Shown piece by piece: positions 27,202-37,812 of a DNA stretch of 40,015 nucleotides. Within the stretch, counting starts at the first letter, position 1. The number at the start of each line of letters is the position of its first letter. The position numbers and the translations under genes are program-made. Below the pieces are notes generated by a model. It saw nothing but the letters and a program-made list of their open reading frames with translations, had not been told where the DNA came from and searched no databases. Source of the DNA: Oscillospiraceae bacterium (GTDB lineage: Bacteria; Bacillota; Clostridia; Oscillospirales; Acutalibacteraceae); the NCBI GenBank assembly GCA_031290595.1, contig JAITNG010000194.1, positions 1 to 40,015 on the forward strand, given 5' to 3'.

Positions 27202-28347
27202 TCACCACTCCGCAACCGTGCCGTCAAAGTTGCGCCAAAGGGGATTCTTCCAGTTGTGCGGCGTTTGCGCGGCGCGGCGCACGGCTTCTTCGTCAATTTC
27301 CAGCCCCAGCCCCGCCCCTTGCGGGATCGTGATGAAGCCGTCCTGATACACATAGATGGACGGGTCTGCCAGGTAATCCAGCAAATCGCCGCCCTTGTTG
27401 TAGTGAATGCCCAGGCTCTGCTCCTGAATGAACACGTTGGGCGTGCAGGCGTCCAGTTGGATGCACGCGCCCAGCGCAATCGGCCCCAGCGGGCAATGCG
27501 GCGCAACGGCAACATCATAGGCTTCGGCCATGGCGGCGATTTTTTTGCATTCGCTGATTCCGCCCGCATGGCTGGGATCCGGCTGGATGATGTCCACATA
27601 CCCGGCCTCAAAGAGGTTCTTGTATTCCCAGCGGCTGAACATCCGCTCGCCGGTGGCAATGGGGGTGGAGGTGTGGTTCGCAATTTCGCGCAGCGCCTCG
27701 TTGTTTTGCGGCAAAACGGGTTCTTCAATGAACATCAGGTGATATTCATCCAGCGCCCGCGCCAGCACCTTTGCCATGCTTTTGTGCACGCGGCCATGGA
27801 AGTCCACCGCAATATCCAGCCCCGGCGCGGCCGCCTGAATGGCCGCCACACGCTCGCACACCGCCGTGATTTTGGCAAAGCTATCGATGTAATGCATCTC
27901 TTCCGTGCCGTTCATCTTGATGGCGCTGTAGCCCTGGGCTTGCGCTTCCCGGGCTGCGTTTGCAATATCCGCAGGCCGGTCGCCGCCAATCCAGCGGTAG
28001 ACCTTCAGTTTATCACGGCAAAGGCCGCCCAGCAGGTTATACACCGGCGTGTTAAAGAATTTCCCCTTAATATCCCACAGCGCCTGGTCGATGCCCGCAA
28101 TGGCGCTCATCACCTCCGCCCCGCCGCGATAGAATCCGCCGCGGTACATCGTCTGCCACAGATCCTCAATTTTCATCGGGTCGGCGCCCTTGAGCAGGGG
28201 CAAAAACTCCTCCACCGCCGTGCGCACAGCATCCGCCCGGCCTTCAATCACAGGTTCGCCCCAGCCGGTGATCCCCTCGTCGGTTTCCACCTTGAGGAAC
28301 AGCCAGCGCGGCGGCACTTTATAAAGCGTAATATTCGTAATTTTCAT
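27202..28347 (-). CDS. Enolase-superfamily sugar-acid dehydratase, D-galactonate dehydratase-like
   Basis: MYRGGFYRGGAEVMSAIAGIDQALWDIKGK; VDFHGR; EEPVLPQN; APHCPLGPIALGAC...FIQEQSLGIHYN. Confidence 0.87.
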   Translation of the reverse strand: MKITNITLYKVPPRWLFLKVETDEGITGWGEPVIEGRADAVRTAVEEFLPLLKGADPMKIEDLWQTMYRGGFYRGGAEVMSAIAGIDQALWDIKGKFFNTPVYNLLGGLCRDKLKVYRWIGGDRPADIANAAREAQAQGYSAIKMNGTEEMHYIDSFAKITAVCERVAAIQAAAPGLDIAVDFHGRVHKSMAKVLARALDEYHLMFIEEPVLPQNNEALREIANHTSTPIATGERMFSRWEYKNLFEAGYVDIIQPDPSHAGGISECKKIAAMAEAYDVAVAPHCPLGPIALGACIQLDACTPNVFIQEQSLGIHYNKGGDLLDYLADPSIYVYQDGFITIPQGAGLGLEIDEEAVRRAAQTPHNWKNPLWRNFDGTVAEW

Positions 28348-28754
28348 TTGACCACCCCTTTTTGAATCAAGATATTCGCCCCCGGCGTTGTATCCGCCGT
28401 GACGACAATGCCCACGGCGTTTTGGGCGCACGTATAGAAAGCAAAGCGCTCCACGCTTTTTATTTTCCCCTGCCCCGCCAGCGCCTCGTATTTGGCCAGC
28501 GCACCGCTCTCGGTCGCCTTTTGCATCACGGTGCAGGGCTGTTCCACGGCGGCGTCCAGCGGGTAAAAGCGCAGAATATCGCCCAGCAAAGCCGAAATGT
28601 CCTCCACGGGCAAATAAAGTATGGGAACGCCCCCGCGTGCATTTTGCACCGCGGGGTAATTTGCATCGGCCAACAGCAGCGTTTCGCCATGACCCATCGC
28701 CATCAACAAACGCAACAGATCCGGGGTAAAGATTTTGGGGATGTGCATCAGCAT
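28344..28754 (-). CDS. RbsD/FucU-family sugar mutarotase
   Basis: MLMHIPKIFTPDLLRLLMAMGHGETLLLADANYPA. Confidence 0.88.
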   Translation of the reverse strand: MLMHIPKIFTPDLLRLLMAMGHGETLLLADANYPAVQNARGGVPILYLPVEDISALLGDILRFYPLDAAVEQPCTVMQKATESGALAKYEALAGQGKIKSVERFAFYTCAQNAVGIVVTADTTPGANILIQKGVVK

Positions 28755-28779
28755 CGTTCTATTGCCTTTCTTTTGCAAA

Positions 28780-29796
28780 TTAAATTTGGGAATCCAACAA
28801 TTCTTCCACCAGGCACGCCGTCGCAAGGTCGGCCTGTGTGTGCGCAGCATCGTATTTGCCGCCTGCACGCACGGCTGTGATGAACAGCGCGTCCTCCTCC
28901 CGGTAGCCGTAATAGTCCTCGTAGCGGTCGCTGCCCGCAATGGCCTTGCCATCCAGGCGCAGCACCTCGGTTTCACCCGCCCCCATGGCGGAAAGGCTCT
29001 GCCTCCCCTGCCCTTTGGCACGCACGACGGTCGCCGCGCAGTCGTTTTCGGTCGAACCCAAATCCACAAAGGCGCTTGCGCCGGGGGCGTGGAAGGCAAA
29101 GCCGTGCGTCCGCCCCCCGGTGGAATAATGGGAGCGCACCACCCCTGCCGCGCCGTTTTCAAATTGCAGGATGCTGTGCCACGCATCCCCCTGCGCACTG
29201 GCAAGGGTGGCGCTTTTGGCGCTGCCGCCCGCCGCACCGCCACAGGCGGCGTGCCGCACCAGATCCACCACATGCACCACATCGCAGGTGAAAGCGCTGG
29301 CGCAGCCGCCATAAAATGCGGGGGAGCTGTTCTTATAAAACCAGCCCTCCGCCAGCGTGATTGCGCCCTGTTCGCGCACCAGGCGCAGCGCTTCGCTCAC
29401 CAGGGGGATGTAGCGCCGATTGTAGCCCACCTGGAGCAAACGACCCTGCGCCTCGGCCTGCGCTTGCAGCGTTTTGGCCTGGTAGGCCGTGACGCCCATC
29501 GGTTTTTCCATGAACACGGCCTTGCCCGCCGCCAGGCAATCGCTTGCCACGCGGAAGAGCGCATCCGGCTGGGTGAGGATGAACAGCGCATCAAGTTCCT
29601 CCCGCGCCAGCATTTCATAATACGACGTATAGGTATGCGCAAAACCGAAGCGTTCCGCCGCGCCCTGCGCACGTTCTTCGCGCAAATCGCACACGGCTTG
29701 CAGCTGCACGCCTTCCAGCCGCGCAAGCACCGGCAAGTGAATCCCGTTTGCGATGCCGCCCGCGCCGACTACGCCGATGTTCACTTTTTCCATCAA
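28780..29796 (-). CDS. Gfo/Idh/MocA-family oxidoreductase
   Basis: IGVVGAGGIANGIHLPVLARL; VFMEKPMGVT. Confidence 0.9.
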   Translation of the reverse strand: MMEKVNIGVVGAGGIANGIHLPVLARLEGVQLQAVCDLREERAQGAAERFGFAHTYTSYYEMLAREELDALFILTQPDALFRVASDCLAAGKAVFMEKPMGVTAYQAKTLQAQAEAQGRLLQVGYNRRYIPLVSEALRLVREQGAITLAEGWFYKNSSPAFYGGCASAFTCDVVHVVDLVRHAACGGAAGGSAKSATLASAQGDAWHSILQFENGAAGVVRSHYSTGGRTHGFAFHAPGASAFVDLGSTENDCAATVVRAKGQGRQSLSAMGAGETEVLRLDGKAIAGSDRYEDYYGYREEDALFITAVRAGGKYDAAHTQADLATACLVEELLDSQI

Positions 29797-30848
29797 AAGA
29801 TCCTCGAATCCCTTCGGTTTTCATAGTAATCCGCGCTGTCGCCGAGCTTTTGCCACACCGGCAGACTCAACGCGTCGATTTGCGCCGCCACCGCCTGTGG
29901 CAGGGCGATTTCGGTTGCGGCGATGTTTTCTTCCAGCTGCGCCACGGTGCGGCAGCCCGCCAGCGTGCTTGCGATAAAGGGCTTTTGCAGCACCCAGGCG
30001 ACGCTCAGCTGCGCCGTCGTGATCCCCTGTTCCGCCGCTATGCGTTGCAGTTCCGGCAGCAGCGCAAAGATTTCCGCTTCCGCACCCGCTTCGTTGTGGC
30101 GGCTATCCTGCGCCGGGTCGCCGCCGCCGACGCCGCGCGATTGTTGATAGTGCCGCGAATGCGCTTGCGGGGGCGGCACATCATCGGGCGCGGCAAAAGC
30201 GCCCGCCAGTAAGCCCTGCTGCAAGGCCATGGAGCCGACGACCGAAATATTTTTGGCAAGGCAAAGCGGCGCGATTTCCGCTTCAATTGCCCGCGAAACG
30301 ATGTTATACGCAATTTCGTTGATGCACACCGGGCAGCCGGTTGCAAGGGCTTCTTCCAGCTGGGTTTTGCCAAAGTTACTCACGCCGATGGCGCGCACCT
30401 TGCCTTTTTGCACCATGCGCTGCAAGGTATCAAAAATTTCGGATACCTGCGGCAGCCGCGCATCGCCTTCGCCGCCAAAGTGCTTGAGCGCCAGCGGGTT
30501 GACCGGCCAGTGCAGCATGTAAAGATCGACATAGTCCGTTTGTAGACGGCGCAGCGAAGCATCGAGGTGGCCTTCAATATCGCCACAGTTGGAGGGCGCA
30601 ATCTTGCTGGCCACAACCGCCTGTGTGCGCTTGCCCCTGAGCGCCACGCCAAGGGATGTTTCGCTTGTGCCGGCGTTGTAGACCTCTGCGGTATCAAAAA
30701 AATTCACGCCGCGCTCCAGCGCCGCCGCACAGATGTTGTTCACCTCCGCCTGGCTTTGCTCGCCCCAATAGGAACCGCCGCCAAAGGCCCAGGTGCCCAT
30801 GCCAAGCGGGTGGATTTTGATGCCGGAGGTTCCAAGTTCACGCAGCAT
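29793..30848 (-). CDS. Aldo/keto reductase
   Basis: GMGTWAFGGG; NFFDTAEVYNAGTSE; VDLYMLHWP; IGVSNFGKTQLEEAL. Confidence 0.92.
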   Translation of the reverse strand: MLRELGTSGIKIHPLGMGTWAFGGGSYWGEQSQAEVNNICAAALERGVNFFDTAEVYNAGTSETSLGVALRGKRTQAVVASKIAPSNCGDIEGHLDASLRRLQTDYVDLYMLHWPVNPLALKHFGGEGDARLPQVSEIFDTLQRMVQKGKVRAIGVSNFGKTQLEEALATGCPVCINEIAYNIVSRAIEAEIAPLCLAKNISVVGSMALQQGLLAGAFAAPDDVPPPQAHSRHYQQSRGVGGGDPAQDSRHNEAGAEAEIFALLPELQRIAAEQGITTAQLSVAWVLQKPFIASTLAGCRTVAQLEENIAATEIALPQAVAAQIDALSLPVWQKLGDSADYYENRRDSRIF

Positions 30849-31850
30849 TTACACGCCCTCCGCCAGCAGCGCCTGTGCCAAAATTGTTTCCGCAATCTTC
30901 ATGGTGCGCAGGTTATCCGTGAAGTTGCACTGCGGAACAACAGCTTTGCCCAGGCAAGCCAGAGTAAAATCCTTTGCCGCTTGCAGGACGCCGCTTTTGG
31001 CATAGGTTTCATCGCTGCCCGCGCTTTCGGCGCAGTCATAGACGGTGGGCGTGGTGCTGCCGTTTTCGTAAAGATAGCCCTTGGTTTCGTGTTCGGCTTC
31101 AACAAAGACGCCGGGCGCGTGCATCTCCACGGCAAAAATGCGTTTGCCGGAACTCCAGTTGTTCATCAAATGCCCCACCGCGCCGTTTTCAAAGGTCATC
31201 TGCGCCATGATGTAATTTATATCCACCGTGCCGACGCGGCGGCACACGCTATCGATGGATTTGATCTCCGACCCCACCATCCAGCGCAGGGTATCAATGG
31301 CGTGGACGGTGTCGTCCATCATGTGATCCCTTGCGCCAAGGAAATCATCCTGGTTGCACTTATAGAATTTGCACACCGCGTGGGTGACTTCGCCGTGTTC
31401 GCGCACCTTTTCGTGCAATTGCACGATCATGGGGCAGTGGCGGCGTTGCAGGCTCACCTGCGTCACCAGGTTGTTGCGCCGCGCAACGGCTTCCAGCGCC
31501 CGCGCCTGGTGGATCGACAAGGCAAGGGGCTTTTCAACATAAAGATGCAGCCCGTGGCTCAGGCACCACATCCAGATGTCATACATGATGTGCGGCTGAC
31601 CAATCACCACGGCAGCGTCCGGCTTTTGCTCCTCGATCATCTTCTGGTATTCATAGACATAGCGGTTGTCGCCATATCGGTTTTGGATGTTGTATTTATC
31701 CGCCGTTGTGTGCAAACGCTCCGGGTCGATGTCGCAGATCCCCACAAATTCAACAAGCCCCTGTGCGCTCAAATCCGCAAAGGAGGGGTAAATCACATCG
31801 TTTGCGCGGCCGCCCGCGCCGATCATCACAATTTTCAGCTTATCAGCCAT
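30849..31850 (-). CDS. Gfo/Idh/MocA-family oxidoreductase
   Basis: VMIGAGGRANDVIYPSFADL; LYVEKPLALS. Confidence 0.9.
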   Translation of the reverse strand: MADKLKIVMIGAGGRANDVIYPSFADLSAQGLVEFVGICDIDPERLHTTADKYNIQNRYGDNRYVYEYQKMIEEQKPDAAVVIGQPHIMYDIWMWCLSHGLHLYVEKPLALSIHQARALEAVARRNNLVTQVSLQRRHCPMIVQLHEKVREHGEVTHAVCKFYKCNQDDFLGARDHMMDDTVHAIDTLRWMVGSEIKSIDSVCRRVGTVDINYIMAQMTFENGAVGHLMNNWSSGKRIFAVEMHAPGVFVEAEHETKGYLYENGSTTPTVYDCAESAGSDETYAKSGVLQAAKDFTLACLGKAVVPQCNFTDNLRTMKIAETILAQALLAEGV

Positions 31851-32700
31851 TGTTGTTTTCCCCTTCCAAACCGGCTTTCACGGCAATCAAATCTTCCCGG
31901 GCAAACTGTTCCACATGCGCAATGGCGCTGTCGCTGTATTCTGCGGGCAGGCAAACCGTGCCGCTGTAGCCCCGCTGCCGCAAATAGGCAAGGGCGCCAT
32001 CCCAGTCGCACATGCCGTGCTTTGCCGTCGTCCAATAGGCGTCCCACTGCGCCGCTGCGGCTTCCGGCCCGTTTTTGCGCTGCCAATAGGCTTGCTTGAA
32101 ATTCACCATGCACAGGTGCTCCCACAGGCAATCCAGGGAATGCGCCGCATTTTCAAAGCAAAGCCCGCTGTGACCCGCATCCCACACCGCCGCAACATAG
32201 CGCGGGTCGTAATCCTTGAGCAAAATATAGCTGTCGTAGCTGCCGATCAGCCCTGTGCCGTGCATCATGTTGTGGTGCATTTGCACGCCGAGGCACACGC
32301 CGTATTTTTCGCCCAGCCGCGCCGCAACATCGTAGCGTGCTTTCAGGTGTTCAATATTTTCCCAAAAGCTCTTATCCTGATCAAAGCCCTGGCAGATGCG
32401 CAGGATGGGTACGCCCGCTTCTCCCATGGCGGCATAGAGCGCTTCCGTTGTGCCAACGGGTTCGCCGCGCCCCTGTTCCACCGCAACATCGATGCCCGCG
32501 GCCATGCTGGCGACCTTTACGCCATGCTTCCCCAGGTTTTTGACCAGGGCTGCGATGTCCTTGGGTTCCTGCGCCTGGTAGCCTTGCCGCAGCGGGAATT
32601 CCACCGCATCAAAGCCCATGGCGCGCACGGCTTCCCCCAATTCATCGACGGACTCCGTCTTCCACGGCTTTGTGAAGACTGCATACTGCAACTTGTTCAC
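31843..32700 (-). CDS. Sugar phosphate isomerase/epimerase-like TIM-barrel protein; GTG start
   Basis: VNKLQYAVFTKPWKTESVDELGEAVRAMGFDAVEFPLRQG; AAVWDAGHSGL. Confidence 0.85.
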   Translation of the reverse strand: MNKLQYAVFTKPWKTESVDELGEAVRAMGFDAVEFPLRQGYQAQEPKDIAALVKNLGKHGVKVASMAAGIDVAVEQGRGEPVGTTEALYAAMGEAGVPILRICQGFDQDKSFWENIEHLKARYDVAARLGEKYGVCLGVQMHHNMMHGTGLIGSYDSYILLKDYDPRYVAAVWDAGHSGLCFENAAHSLDCLWEHLCMVNFKQAYWQRKNGPEAAAAQWDAYWTTAKHGMCDWDGALAYLRQRGYSGTVCLPAEYSDSAIAHVEQFAREDLIAVKAGLEGENNNG

Positions 32701-32717: not shown

Positions 32718-33578
32718 TTATTTTGTGGCTTCCGCCCAATGCGGCACAATCGCTTTGCCCTTCACCGTGGGCAAAGCGCCCTTGCCCAGTTTCACCTGGG
32801 CTTCCGGCGCGAGGATGGTGAAATTTTCCAACAATTCTTTGTTTGTGCAAAGGTAAAACGCATAATCGCCGATGCTTTGCAGGGTGGAGGGCAGGGTGAG
32901 CTGTTTGAGTTCGTCGCACTGGATGAACGCATCGTTGCCAATCGCGGTCAGCCCCTCCGCAATGGTGATTTCTTCCACGGCGGAATGAATGAACGCGCTA
33001 TCGCTAATTTCGCGCAGGCTGGCGGGGAACGTGACCGCACGCAGCCCCTGGGTTTTCATGAAGGCGTTGTGGGCAATCGTCCGGGTTCCTTCCGGCACGG
33101 TGTAATCCGCCTTTTTCTCCAGGCTTCCGTTGCGCTCAAACACCACGTTTTGCCCATTGGGGTAGGCCACCAGCACGGTTTTATCCTTGCTGAACAGCAC
33201 GCCGTCCTCGTCGCAGTAATTCGGGTTATCCGCCGCCACAAAGATGTTCTTCAGGTGCTGGTTGAGGATGATCGCCCAATCCCGGATTTCCGTGACATTG
33301 GGGCCGATCACAATTTCCTCCAGGTGTTCTGCGCTCTGGATGGCGTATTCCCCAATCACCGTGACGGGCAACCCGTTGAACGCGTTGATTTCGAGCTTCG
33401 TGTAGTTCTGGGTGTCGCTAAAATACACCAGCGTGTAGGATTTCCCGTCCTCGTTCAGGGTGTATTCCGTGTGGTTTTGCTTGTCGCTTTCGCGGCCAAA
33501 GCAGCCGGTGAAGGTCAGCGCCATCAGTGCGCAGGCCAGCAGCAGCGCGGCAATGCGCTTGCAGTGGTTTGCTTTCAT
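32718..33578 (-). CDS. BspA/LRR_5-type leucine-rich repeat lipoprotein
   Basis: Signal peptide with lipobox LTFTGC; repeats such as LREISDSAFIHSAVEEITIAEGLTAIGNDAFIQCDELKQLTLPSTLQSIGDYAF. Confidence 0.83.
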   Translation of the reverse strand: MKANHCKRIAALLLACALMALTFTGCFGRESDKQNHTEYTLNEDGKSYTLVYFSDTQNYTKLEINAFNGLPVTVIGEYAIQSAEHLEEIVIGPNVTEIRDWAIILNQHLKNIFVAADNPNYCDEDGVLFSKDKTVLVAYPNGQNVVFERNGSLEKKADYTVPEGTRTIAHNAFMKTQGLRAVTFPASLREISDSAFIHSAVEEITIAEGLTAIGNDAFIQCDELKQLTLPSTLQSIGDYAFYLCTNKELLENFTILAPEAQVKLGKGALPTVKGKAIVPHWAEATK

Positions 33579-35266
33579 ACCAAATCGCCCCCTTCCGATT
33601 GTTCTGCAGCCGCAGCGCCCTTTGCCCGTTCCTCCAGATCCGCACGGATTTTTTTCAGCTTATCCGGCGTAAGATCCCAGAAGGCATAGGGGATGAGGCT
33701 CAGCACCGCGCCGATGATTTCCAGAAGGAGGAACAGGTTGATGTAGTTCGTGCGCATCGTGGCATTATACAGCAGGTCAAAATCGCCCAGGAAGCCGAGC
33801 TGCCGCATCAGGAAGGGCGCAACCGCGCTGACGGCAAAGCCGACGGGCGTTGAAATCAGGTTGAACAGTGCGCCGGAGGCTTCCATGCGCTCGCCGGTGC
33901 GCCACTGGTGATAATCCCACGTGTCGCATTCCATGGAACTGGTGATGGGGGTCGTGGCGCAGGCGAACAGGTTGCGCGCCCCGAGCATGACCAGGATGAG
34001 GACAATCTGCACCACGGTGGAACCGTTGATCCCTTGGCGGAAAGCGAACACCAGCGGGAGGGTCAGCAGTGTTGTGAGGGCGTTGAGCGTCAGCATCGCC
34101 CTGCGGTTGGACCAGCGTTTGGTGAACAGCGGGCCGAGCAGGTTGCCGGGCGTACTGGTGGGCAGCTTCATCAGGTTGAGCGCGATGCCAAACATCCATT
34201 CCATGCGGGAGCCGAAAATCAACATCAGCTTGATGATTTCCTCCGCGCCGCCGGCCACAAAGCTAAACCAACCCCTGAGCCGGAGCAGCCACAGGTATTT
34301 GTTGGTGAAAATCGTTTTAACCGAGCTGAAGAATTTGATTTGCGGCACATGCCCCGGCTCTTCGATCACCCGCTCCTTCACCTTCAGCACCGTGAGCAGG
34401 ATCACAAGAGAAACCCCGCCATAGACGGGGATCAGCGTGCGATAAATGCGGATGTCCCGCATCCCGCCGCCATAGAGGCTGGCGATGATGGGGAACAGGA
34501 TGCTGTAAAGCGAGGACGCCAGTCCGCTGATGATGGGGATAACGCTGAACATCCGCGTGCGTTCGCGCGGGCGGGTGCTGACGCGGATGTTCATATCGCC
34601 CATCGCTGTGGGCGACATAAAGCAGTTGACGAGGCCGGACATGAAGTGCGTGATCAAAAACAGGTTGTTGTAGCCCAGGGTTTTGTAAGGGATAAACGTC
34701 ATAAGCGTCCCCGTGAGGATCAGCAGGGGGCCGTAAATGATTTTGAAGGGCTTATATTTGCCGAAGCGTCTGCTGAACAGCCGCAGCACCACGGCGGTGA
34801 GCGCATTGCTGAACACCACAAAAAACAGGTTGATGGCGATGTGCTTAAAGAAATCCGGCATCAGGCTATCGAAGGTTGCGACGGGCAAGAACCAACAGAT
34901 GGCCGCAAGCCCCAAAATCCCCGCGCCGCCCAGGAGCAGCTTGCGGGTTGTTTTGCGCGGGAAGCGCCCCAGGTTATCCGTGATATACGGCGCAATGGGG
35001 GTGAACAAATACCCCACAATGCCGGTGACCACGCTGTTCATCCAAAAGTGCGTCAGGCGCAGGCCAAAGATCATAGAAGCCAGCATAGCGCCCTGCCCAA
35101 AGCCAAAATACCCGGTGATGGCCGTGAGCGCACGCGAGCCGAGGTTGGCGGTATTCAGCATCACAAGTTCCGAACCAGAAAGATCGTTGCCTTCTTTGGG
35201 GTGGCTCCAGTGCTGAAAGAATGCTTTGAACGGGTTTTGCTTTTGGGCTGTGGCTTGTTCTGGCAT
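33575..35266 (-). CDS. MFS/GPH-type sugar transporter
   Basis: ~12 hydrophobic segments; GSELVMLNTANLGSRALTAITGYFGFGQGAML; start at MPEQ. Confidence 0.8.
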   Translation of the reverse strand: MPEQATAQKQNPFKAFFQHWSHPKEGNDLSGSELVMLNTANLGSRALTAITGYFGFGQGAMLASMIFGLRLTHFWMNSVVTGIVGYLFTPIAPYITDNLGRFPRKTTRKLLLGGAGILGLAAICWFLPVATFDSLMPDFFKHIAINLFFVVFSNALTAVVLRLFSRRFGKYKPFKIIYGPLLILTGTLMTFIPYKTLGYNNLFLITHFMSGLVNCFMSPTAMGDMNIRVSTRPRERTRMFSVIPIISGLASSLYSILFPIIASLYGGGMRDIRIYRTLIPVYGGVSLVILLTVLKVKERVIEEPGHVPQIKFFSSVKTIFTNKYLWLLRLRGWFSFVAGGAEEIIKLMLIFGSRMEWMFGIALNLMKLPTSTPGNLLGPLFTKRWSNRRAMLTLNALTTLLTLPLVFAFRQGINGSTVVQIVLILVMLGARNLFACATTPITSSMECDTWDYHQWRTGERMEASGALFNLISTPVGFAVSAVAPFLMRQLGFLGDFDLLYNATMRTNYINLFLLLEIIGAVLSLIPYAFWDLTPDKLKKIRADLEERAKGAAAAEQSEGGDLV

Positions 35267-35323
35267 GATGTCCTCCTTCACGAATGTTTTTGCCCTGGGG
35301 ATTATTGCGCAATTCTGCCTTTT

Positions 35324-35352: not shown

Positions 35353-35425
35353 GTCTTTCGTTGCAAAAATATGAAAAATTGTTTATTTTCGCTGGACAAG
35401 GGTTTAAGGTAGTGACAACCCAGAA

Positions 35426-35447
35426 GGGGCAGCCCGCAAGCTGCCCC
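35426..35447 (-). terminator. Hairpin downstream of the glycyl radical enzyme gene
   Basis: GGGGCAGC-N6-GCTGCCCC; the T-tract is stronger on the + side. Confidence 0.5.
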
Positions 35448-35467
35448 TGTGTTTTTGATACATGCAC

Positions 35468-37636
35468 TTAGTTTTGGATGATCCGCTCCACCACCAGCTT
35501 GCGGAAGTCCTTGGAAAGCGTGGAAAAATAGACCGAGAAGCCGGTGATGCGCACGATCAGGTCGGGGTATTTTTCCGGGTGTTCATAAGCGTCCAAGAGC
35601 TTGGCGGAATCGATGATGTTGATGTTGACCAGACTGCCGCCCAAATCGTTGCAATAGGTGAGCAGCCAGGCCAGGATGTTTTCGATGCCCTCTTCGCCCT
35701 TGGCCAGCACGGGGTCAATTTCCAGCTGGATGGGGGCGGTGTTGCCCCAGCGGGGCTGCACGGCGGCGACTGCCACGCCCATGGCCGTCAGTGCGCCGGA
35801 TTCGCGGAAGCCCGGTTCCGGGTTTGCGCCGTGGGTGACGGGTGTGCCGGATTTGCGCCCGTTGGGGGTGGCCATCACATCCCTGCCCATGCCGATGGTG
35901 TTGGCCCACGAGAACAGACCCGGGATCATGTTGAAGCCCATGGGGCTTTTGCTCTTTTTGGTGTGGTGCGTCAGGCGGTTGACGATTTCGACCGCATATT
36001 CATCCGCACGGGTGTTGCCAAAGCCGTAGCGCGGCGTGGCTTTCATATAAAGCCGCATGTCTTCCCGGCCCTCCCAGTCTTCCCGCAGGACGGCGAAGAG
36101 GTCTTCCCAGTTCATCACTTCTTCGTCTTCCACCGCGCGTTCCATCGAAGCGAAGCTGTCGGCCACCGTGCCGAGCGCCACAAAGTCGATGCAAAAGTTG
36201 TAATTATCCACACCGCCGTTGGAAACATCCAGCCCGCGCTCAATCGGCCCATGGCACATGAAATTCAGCGCCATTTCAGGCCGCATATAATGATAAAACT
36301 TATATTGCTGGTCAACGGTCTTTTTGATGACGTCAACGGCAACATCCAGGTGCTTGTCAAACAGCTCCCAGGCGCGCGCGACGGAAGGGGTTTTCTCTTC
36401 CATCAAATCGAGCATGGCGAGTTCAAAGAGCTTGCCCATGTTGATCTTGACGACGTCGTTGAGGGTGTATTCGGTGCCGGGCAGAGCGCACCAGTTGCAG
36501 CCGACCTTGGCGCGGGTACGGGCGACTTCGGCGGTGTAGCCGTTCTTCATGAAGCCTTCAACCATGCAGCGGTCGCCGATGTAGGAGGGATTGCCGCACT
36601 TATCCTCAAAGAGGTATTGCACGCTCTTGCGCAAAAAGGCGCGGTCGATGCCCTCGTGCACCCGCAGGCAAATCGCCGTGGGGATCTTGAGCCAGTGGGC
36701 GGCCTCAATGGCCATATAGCTGATCTCGTTGGTGCGGTCGCTGCCATCCGGCCAAACGCCGCCGATCTCGTAATACTGGGTATCCTTGAGGAACAGGCAC
36801 GCCAGGTGGTACGTCGCTTCTTCCTGCGTGATGCGCCCGGCGGCCAGGTCGTTGCGATAGAAGTCCGTCAACAGCTCTTCCAGGTTCCCGCCCGCGCCGG
36901 AGCCGTTGAAGATGCTCGATTGCACCAGGAACCAGGTCAGGAACTGACAGGCTTCCAGGAAGGTGGCGGGCGGCGCGTCGATCAGGCGGAAGTTGATCTC
37001 CGCCATGCGTTCCAGGTTGGCCTTCAGGTCGGGGTCGTCCTGCGCTGCTGCTGCGGTCTGCGCGGCTTCGGCGTTGTGGCGCACCCACAGTTGGATCCCC
37101 CGGATCACCTTTTCTTCGCCCTTGAGGAAGGCCAGCTTTTCCGCGTCGTCCTTGTGGACTTCCTGGTAATGGCGGATTTTTTCGAGCAGCCCCTGCCAGC
37201 CAAGCACAAAACCGATGTTCTTCACATCGTGGTGGAAGTGATGGCTCCCGCCCAGGCCGGAAACCAGGCTGTATTTTTGATGCAGCGCACGCAGTTCAGC
37301 CAGTTCCGGGGGGTTGAATTCCGGCTCCGGCCGCCAGCCGCCCCAGCTGTGCCACTCCAGTTTATCCATATAAGCGCCCGCCAGCGAGCAATAGGGGTCG
37401 ATGTAAGGCGGGTGCACGTCGAGCATCCTGTAAAAATTATCCGCCCATGCTTCCGCGCCAAAGACGCCGTTGGGGTGGTTGAACTCCATTTCAAATTTCC
37501 AGTCGTCCGGCGGAACCACCCAGCCTTTGTCGTCAGTATCAAAAAAGCCGGGGCGGGTGAACGTCTTGACCTTGCGTTTGGTTTCCTCCACCTTTTGTTT
37601 GCGGAGAACATCCACTTTTTCCTGATAGGTGAGCAT
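35468..37636 (-). CDS. Glycyl radical enzyme (PFL-like), uncharacterised subfamily
   Basis: Active-site loop KVGCNWCALPGTEYTLNDVVK; C-terminal glycyl motif VRITGFSVYFSTLSKDFRKLVVER; Shine-Dalgarno AGGAAGG before MLTYQEK. Confidence 0.9.
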   Translation of the reverse strand: MLTYQEKVDVLRKQKVEETKRKVKTFTRPGFFDTDDKGWVVPPDDWKFEMEFNHPNGVFGAEAWADNFYRMLDVHPPYIDPYCSLAGAYMDKLEWHSWGGWRPEPEFNPPELAELRALHQKYSLVSGLGGSHHFHHDVKNIGFVLGWQGLLEKIRHYQEVHKDDAEKLAFLKGEEKVIRGIQLWVRHNAEAAQTAAAAQDDPDLKANLERMAEINFRLIDAPPATFLEACQFLTWFLVQSSIFNGSGAGGNLEELLTDFYRNDLAAGRITQEEATYHLACLFLKDTQYYEIGGVWPDGSDRTNEISYMAIEAAHWLKIPTAICLRVHEGIDRAFLRKSVQYLFEDKCGNPSYIGDRCMVEGFMKNGYTAEVARTRAKVGCNWCALPGTEYTLNDVVKINMGKLFELAMLDLMEEKTPSVARAWELFDKHLDVAVDVIKKTVDQQYKFYHYMRPEMALNFMCHGPIERGLDVSNGGVDNYNFCIDFVALGTVADSFASMERAVEDEEVMNWEDLFAVLREDWEGREDMRLYMKATPRYGFGNTRADEYAVEIVNRLTHHTKKSKSPMGFNMIPGLFSWANTIGMGRDVMATPNGRKSGTPVTHGANPEPGFRESGALTAMGVAVAAVQPRWGNTAPIQLEIDPVLAKGEEGIENILAWLLTYCNDLGGSLVNINIIDSAKLLDAYEHPEKYPDLIVRITGFSVYFSTLSKDFRKLVVERIIQN

Positions 37637-37783: not shown

Positions 37784-37812
37784 TTGACATTCACCCGTGC
37801 GGCTGTTATAAT
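37784..37812 (+). promoter_or_regulatory. Consensus sigma-A-like promoter for rplU-rpmA
   Basis: TTGACA-N17-TATAAT, exact consensus. Confidence 0.85.

Follow-up and report, generated by a model that had tools for sequence, protein, structure and literature searches.

Clostridia glycyl radical enzymes with tryptophan at the catalytic glutamate position and a possible role in carbohydrate breakdown

We describe a glycyl radical enzyme (GRE) gene which, as judged from its sequence, is a member of a distinct Clostridia-wide clade for which we found no curated name. In this clade, the catalytic Glu of the GCxE loop that characterizes the GRE 1,2-lyases is absent, from the gene product studied here and from 53 of 53 clade members, all of which have Trp instead. 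The DNA studied, hereafter the window, is a stretch of 40,015 nucleotides from an Oscillospiraceae bacterium (GCA_031290595.1, contig JAITNG010000194.1, positions 1–40,015, forward strand). We are nearly certain that these GCxW proteins form a separate GRE clade with its own activase. A broader proposal, to which we give slightly less than an even chance, is that they represent a functionally new class of GRE in Clostridia that uses its thiyl radical to cleave a sugar or cyclitol intermediate, with no conserved Glu base, as part of a radical carbohydrate catabolism linked to Gfo/Idh oxidoreductases. To our knowledge, characterized GRE lyases have been described as dependent on the Glu beside the thiyl Cys. 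A clade in which that Glu is replaced in every member, and in which another Glu is invariant, offers a natural test of its role. About 8% of the genomes sampled from the class carry the clade, next to genes for sugar catabolism, so anaerobic carbohydrate breakdown may include a radical step that has been overlooked. No description of the GCxW clade was found in the full-text literature searched, which was mostly non-subscription, so an earlier description elsewhere is possible.

The window gene and its active-site residues

The gene occupies positions 35468–37636 on the minus strand. Its 721-codon frame begins at LTYQEK, and the protein is 722 residues long when the likely ATG at 37636 is counted, upstream of which lies a good ribosome site (AAGGAAGG). 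Residues are numbered here from the L of LTYQEK, and increase by one if Met is included. Both expected domains are matched, PFL-like (PF02901) at 276 bits, above cut-off, and Gly_radical (PF01228) at 57 bits against a cut-off of 22.2; PF02901 and Foldseek both place the thiyl-Cys finger loop within a PFL-like barrel. Downstream, a strong G+C hairpin (35425–35448, minus strand) begins 20 nt past the stop codon and is the likely end of the transcript, although no T run follows it on that strand. On the other side of the gene, a perfect TTGACA-17-TATAAT promoter is seen at 37784–37812 (plus strand), upstream of rplU/rpmA and divergent from the GRE.

The preliminary description had read a GCNWCALPG loop and a C-terminal RITGFSVYF motif from this DNA, and the minus-strand codons, the frame and the Pfam matches bear out both. 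From 36502 to 36476, the codons GGC TGC AAC TGG TGC GCT CTG CCC GGC encode G378-C379-N-W381-C382-A-L-P-G386, in which C379 is the predicted thiyl residue. The glycyl-radical motif (R695–F703; 35525–35551, minus strand) is read in the context VRITGFSVYF, and its G698, the predicted radical glycine, is conserved in the clade alignment. When the window loop, GCNWCALPGTEYTLND, is compared with those of glycerol dehydratase (GDH), GCVEPQKPGKTEGWHD, and PflD, GCVELSIPGRTYGLHD, the spacing is the same and no gap is needed. This alignment is anchored by Pro-Gly at C+6/7 and Asp at C+14, which places W381 on the Glu column, as had been proposed. The Trp is not there by chance, to judge from its invariance in the 53 clade sequences and from the 16-residue loop, which is identical wherever a genus orthologue covers it. 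The active-site His and Asp of the GRE 1,2-lyases are present as the invariant H132 (37238–37240, minus strand) and D393 (C+14; 36455–36457, minus strand), aligned with His164 and Asp447 of GDH. The roles of these two GDH residues, and of Glu435 in the column of W381, are those we take them to have in the GDH structure. Finally, E388 (C+9; 36470–36472, minus strand) is a clade-invariant Glu and a candidate replacement acid/base. At the level of sequence, then, a glycyl motif, a thiyl Cys, counterparts of His164 and Asp447, the Glu-to-Trp replacement, the C+9 Glu and a partner activase (see below) are established.

No family with a solved structure is close to the window GRE, and no curated model matches it above cut-off. 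NCBIfam GRE models do match, all far below their cut-offs: the best is TIGR01774, at 230 bits versus 678, and the equivalog models fall further below theirs; none for the 1,2-lyases (GDH, propanediol dehydratase, CutC, HypD, IseG, PflD) exceeds its cut-off. Pyruvate formate-lyase (TIGR01255) scores 80 bits against 994, with G-C found where that enzyme has Cys-Cys, and the arylacetate decarboxylases (HPAD/IAD) score 121.5 against 1150 (NF033715) and 130 against 1100 (NF033718). As the window member falls under every curated NCBI cut-off, such GREs are probably labelled merely as generic formate acetyltransferase or dehydratase.

Solved GRE structures can nevertheless be aligned across most of the protein. 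Using an AF2 model of the window GRE (mean pLDDT 76.7, with the Cys loop modelled at low confidence), Foldseek returned GDH, choline TMA-lyase and propanediol dehydratase on top, at 20–22% identity, with a probability of 1.00 for the GRE fold. GDH (1r8w) and propanediol dehydratase (5i2g) resemble the model in fold (TM 0.75–0.76), in the thiyl Cys, the His164/Asp447 counterparts and the radical Gly, and in having a PFLE/PFLC-type activase with a ferredoxin insert. They differ in that the window GRE is only about 22% identical to them, has Trp in the Glu435 column, is two residues shorter in the S282 region and at least about 65 residues shorter overall, and carries E388, E453 and H601, which are specific to the GCxW clade. 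PflD and YbiW were also among the Foldseek matches, through their complexes with 1,5-anhydromannitol- and 1,5-anhydroglucitol-6-phosphate (8id0, 8id7). These sugar-derived ligands make them the closest precedent for a GRE acting on a sugar, and the spacing in PflD from the loop to the PG and the Asp aligns exactly with that of the window protein. PflD, however, retains GCVE, has Thr at C+9 and is 18–20% identical to the window GRE; a PflD relative (L008) groups with PflD, outside the GCxW clade. CutC, HypD and IseG (C–N, dehydrating and C–S lyases, respectively) share the superfamily fold and the radical relay, and differ in using a Glu that deprotonates the substrate hydroxyl, a role that PMC6453916 assigns to the Glu of IseG on the analogy of other GRE lyases. 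The window GRE lies far under the equivalog cut-offs of all three.

A Clostridia-wide clade

Among 398 genomes of the GTDB family, relatives were recovered at 37–43% and at 30% identity, and from these a profile (A2) was built for searches of the class and phylum. Clade members were found in 30 of 391 sampled Clostridia genomes, about 1 in 13, representing 23 genera; two more, with the same loop type, were found in 399 genomes of the phylum. Near-full-length members score 595–1147 bits against A2, versus at most 368 for the other GREs in hand and at most 335 for GREs in the PDB. A maximum-likelihood tree that included five references from the PDB separates the 53 GCxW sequences, some of which are near-identical, from the rest by a branch with SH-aLRT support of 99; removal of the loop columns and of the longest outgroup rows lowers this to 97. 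One small group (L140, L141, L180, L181) is joined to the rest of the clade through long branches, and this join is less certain.

The clade loop has the invariant form G-C-x-W-x-x-x-P-G-x-E-x4-D. Trp at C+2, Pro-Gly at C+6/7, Glu at C+9, Asp at C+14, H132 and D136 are each found in 53/53 sequences, and E453 and H601 are typical of the clade (51/53). In 21 other GREs, the C+2 residue is Glu (16), Ser (3, all PFLs), Gln (1, the deposited E491Q mutant of CutC) or Val (1), and none of the 21 has Glu at C+9. The residue at C+3 is variable: Met in 27 clade members, Cys in 13, Val in 7, Phe in 3, Thr in 2 and Tyr in 1. The preliminary description stressed this second Cys, which does not survive the comparison as a hallmark of the enzyme. 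Present in only 13 of the 53, it is a local feature rather than part of the core chemistry. It is highly improbable that C382 gives rise to a new thiol or thiyl chemistry; C382 is invariant in the genus and the residue recurs in one further group (GCHWC), but 40 of the 53 members have another residue there and keep all other features. Cys also occurs at C+4 in 22 clade members, and neither position is Cys clade-wide. What does stand as likely, from the earlier suggestion of an uncharacterized GRE chemistry, attaches to the class-wide clade with its Trp and new Glu, and not to this one gene or to GCxWC.

With the narrow pattern GCNWCxxPG, the window was the sole match in 394 genomes of the order; the pattern is too strict, given that GC[NHQ]W[MVTFY] is what the relatives have. 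Searching 300 genomes of the phylum with a single protein returned only GREs of 28–31% identity, all without the Trp; it was the profile that recovered the two phylum members noted above. A scan of viral contigs with L019 found no match.

Several further gene arrangements were seen. Tandem GCxW GRE genes lie behind a single activase gene in two loci (L136, 5800–7992 and 8060–10234; L137, 3591–5774 and 5809–6912), and in a third, a GCxW GRE and a GRE with a GCGEY loop lie on either side of one activase gene (L134, 4073–6208 and 7030–9240). Four single ORFs of about 930–1120 aa (L020, 2328–5588; L021, 2852–6124; L022, 1–2781; L023, 8720–12076) seem to be fusions of an N-terminal GRE activase with a GCVEP GRE; they come from Oscillospiraceae MAGs, a proteobacterium and a Lokiarchaeota MAG.

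Genus orthologues and the partner activase

A scan of the genome collection identified orthologues of the window GRE, at 73–87% identity, in Oscillospiraceae MAGs (L012–L018) that may originate from termite gut, to judge from their isolate codes. The loop GCNWCALPGTEYTLND is found in every genus orthologue that covers this region. Among 14 genomes of the host genus, eight have the GRE, and most copies stand alone, with no sugar gene regularly adjacent.

The radical-SAM activase expected of a GRE was identified in the same genomes. An activase sharing at least 64% identity with the L014 copy, which adjoins the GRE there, is found in exactly the eight genomes that have the GRE and in none of the other six (Fisher p = 3.3e-4, uncorrected for kinship). 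The two genes are adjacent in L014 and L016 and 4 kb apart in a third genome (G692); in most of the others, including the window genome, they lie on different contigs. The activase of the window genome (contig C69) is 71% identical to the GRE-linked one. Outside the genus, 41 of 46 wider-clade loci contain an activase-family gene, usually next to the GRE. This pattern bears on whether the window protein is degenerate or non-catalytic, as loss of the canonical Glu might suggest. We find that idea barely credible, given that the GRE and its matched activase are retained or lost as a pair, and that a deep clade has conserved the thiyl Cys, the radical Gly, the His and the Asp.

The window genome contains four more GREs (L001–L004, on contigs C72, C138, C113 and C125), with the loops ACCVSP (a PFL), GCAEVRMP, SCVE and GCQEP, and only one full PFLE/PFLC-type activase was found in it. 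In one genus genome, the matched activase stretch (L084; G708, contig C156, 8082–8969) has a single in-frame TGA near its end, possibly the true stop.

Gene neighbourhoods and possible chemistry

Next to the GRE in the window lies a cluster of sugar genes, all on the minus strand: a GPH/MFS-type transporter, the first gene (33575–35281); a xylose-isomerase-like TIM barrel, IolE-like and below cut-off (31843–32700); two Gfo/Idh/MocA oxidoreductases (30849–31850 and 28780–29796) flanking an aldo/keto reductase (29793–30848); an RbsD/FucU-type mutarotase (28344–28754; scanned as 28359–28775); and a D-galactonate dehydratase, DgoD (27202–28347; 643 bits versus a cut-off of 311). The cluster also includes a BspA-type leucine-rich-repeat protein with a lipoprotein-like signal (32718–33578, minus strand). 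It looks like a separate transcription unit, since both the strong hairpin and a promoter-like site before the transporter gene (35352–35324) fall between it and the GRE.

It might be supposed that the GRE acts within this cluster, on galactonate or on the keto-deoxy sugar acid produced by DgoD. DgoD lies 7 kb from the GRE. A second type of DgoD, encoded next to the L014 GRE and divergently from it, occurs in 7/8 genomes with the GRE versus 1/6 without (p = 0.016). Nonetheless, we judge this role quite improbable in light of the hairpin and promoter-like site, the occurrence of the window-type DgoD-FucU pair without any GRE in another genome (G701), and our finding no DgoD near the GRE in L128–L141. 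The operon was rejected as direct evidence of functional context, as the genus orthologues lack the arrangement and the DgoD-FucU pair also exists where there is no GRE. The sugar-derived substrate proposed in the preliminary description remains plausible, but the argument for it rests on the neighbourhoods of the wider clade, because the window operon is not conserved in the genus and appears to be a separate unit.

Within 6 kb of the GRE, Gfo/Idh/MocA oxidoreductases are found in 25/46 clade loci, often three or four at a time, versus 2/20 control GREs (p = 6e-4, in a test that ignores the relatedness of loci). A TIM-barrel isomerase is found in 11/46 clade loci versus 0/20 controls, counts that likewise ignore relatedness. 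Loci of the L130 type have a phosphomannose-isomerase-like protein and a cupin; L140 and L141 have rhamnose-mutarotase-like, aldose epimerase and fucose-isomerase-like proteins, a split transketolase and a methylglyoxal synthase; and L136 has GH38 and GH29 glycosidases. Genes in the G+C-rich clade loci were called by codon scores. Most neighbour names are based on family matches under equivalog cut-offs, and so indicate a type of chemistry rather than a substrate. From the Gfo/Idh, TIM-barrel and other sugar genes, we consider it fairly probable that the substrate is of the sugar or polyol type. Some GCxW GREs are also adjoined by a family of 726–759 aa containing DFVMVYG, with no credible Pfam match (L135, 4595–6811; L136, 11369–13645; L137, 164–2437; L164, 11192–13384; L178, 8463–10640).

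Our preferred reading, held with a little better than even confidence, is that the window protein is a functional GCxW enzyme that carries out radical C–O cleavage of a sugar- or cyclitol-like substrate, with its acid/base groups rearranged. The activase would generate a radical on G698, which would pass to C379, and the C379 thiyl radical would take a hydrogen from a carbon of the polyhydroxylated substrate. A C–O bond would then break, through loss of a hydroxyl or ring opening, with acid help from H132/D393, and the hydrogen would be given back. W381 would occupy the place normally taken by Glu, perhaps packing on a face of the sugar; proton transfer could fall to E388 and/or to other clade-specific polar residues (E453, H601).

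How the missing Glu is compensated can be imagined in more than one way. In a classical dehydratase 1,2-elimination that has been re-wired, E388 would extend into the position vacated by the Glu and take over its proton transfer, and the Trp would merely shape the pocket for a larger substrate. The presence of E388 in all clade members and in none of the 21 other GREs is consistent with this idea, as is retention of the His164 and Asp447 counterparts. On the other hand, the predicted strand 388–398 gives E388 a parity opposite to that of D393, which would turn the two residues to opposite faces and speaks against a role of E388 as base; the loop is of low confidence in the model. We lean against this version while taking it as a real possibility.

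C–O lyase chemistry as such is about an even call, and C–C cleavage is a serious rival. A C–C lyase would not need the Glu base: it might cleave a free ketose, in PFL-like or ketol-type fashion, or act as a decarboxylase. PFL, itself a GRE, likewise lacks Glu at C+2 (Ser), and the GRE of L140 and L141 lies beside a fucose-isomerase-like protein and a split transketolase, with no kinase or aldolase recognized among the neighbours. Against this, the Cys-Cys of PFL is replaced by G-C in the window GRE, and the clade profile scores 129 bits for PFL and 194–257 for the aryl decarboxylases, under the 1,2-lyases, making this set of reactions unlikely in our view. Nor do the X-succinate synthases TutD and MasD, although GREs, come closer, at 167–194 bits, again below the 1,2-lyases, and with a GCxS motif in place of which the window GRE has W. 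For CutC, propanediol dehydratase, GDH and PflD the clade profile scores are nearly equal, and hence do not point to one reaction.
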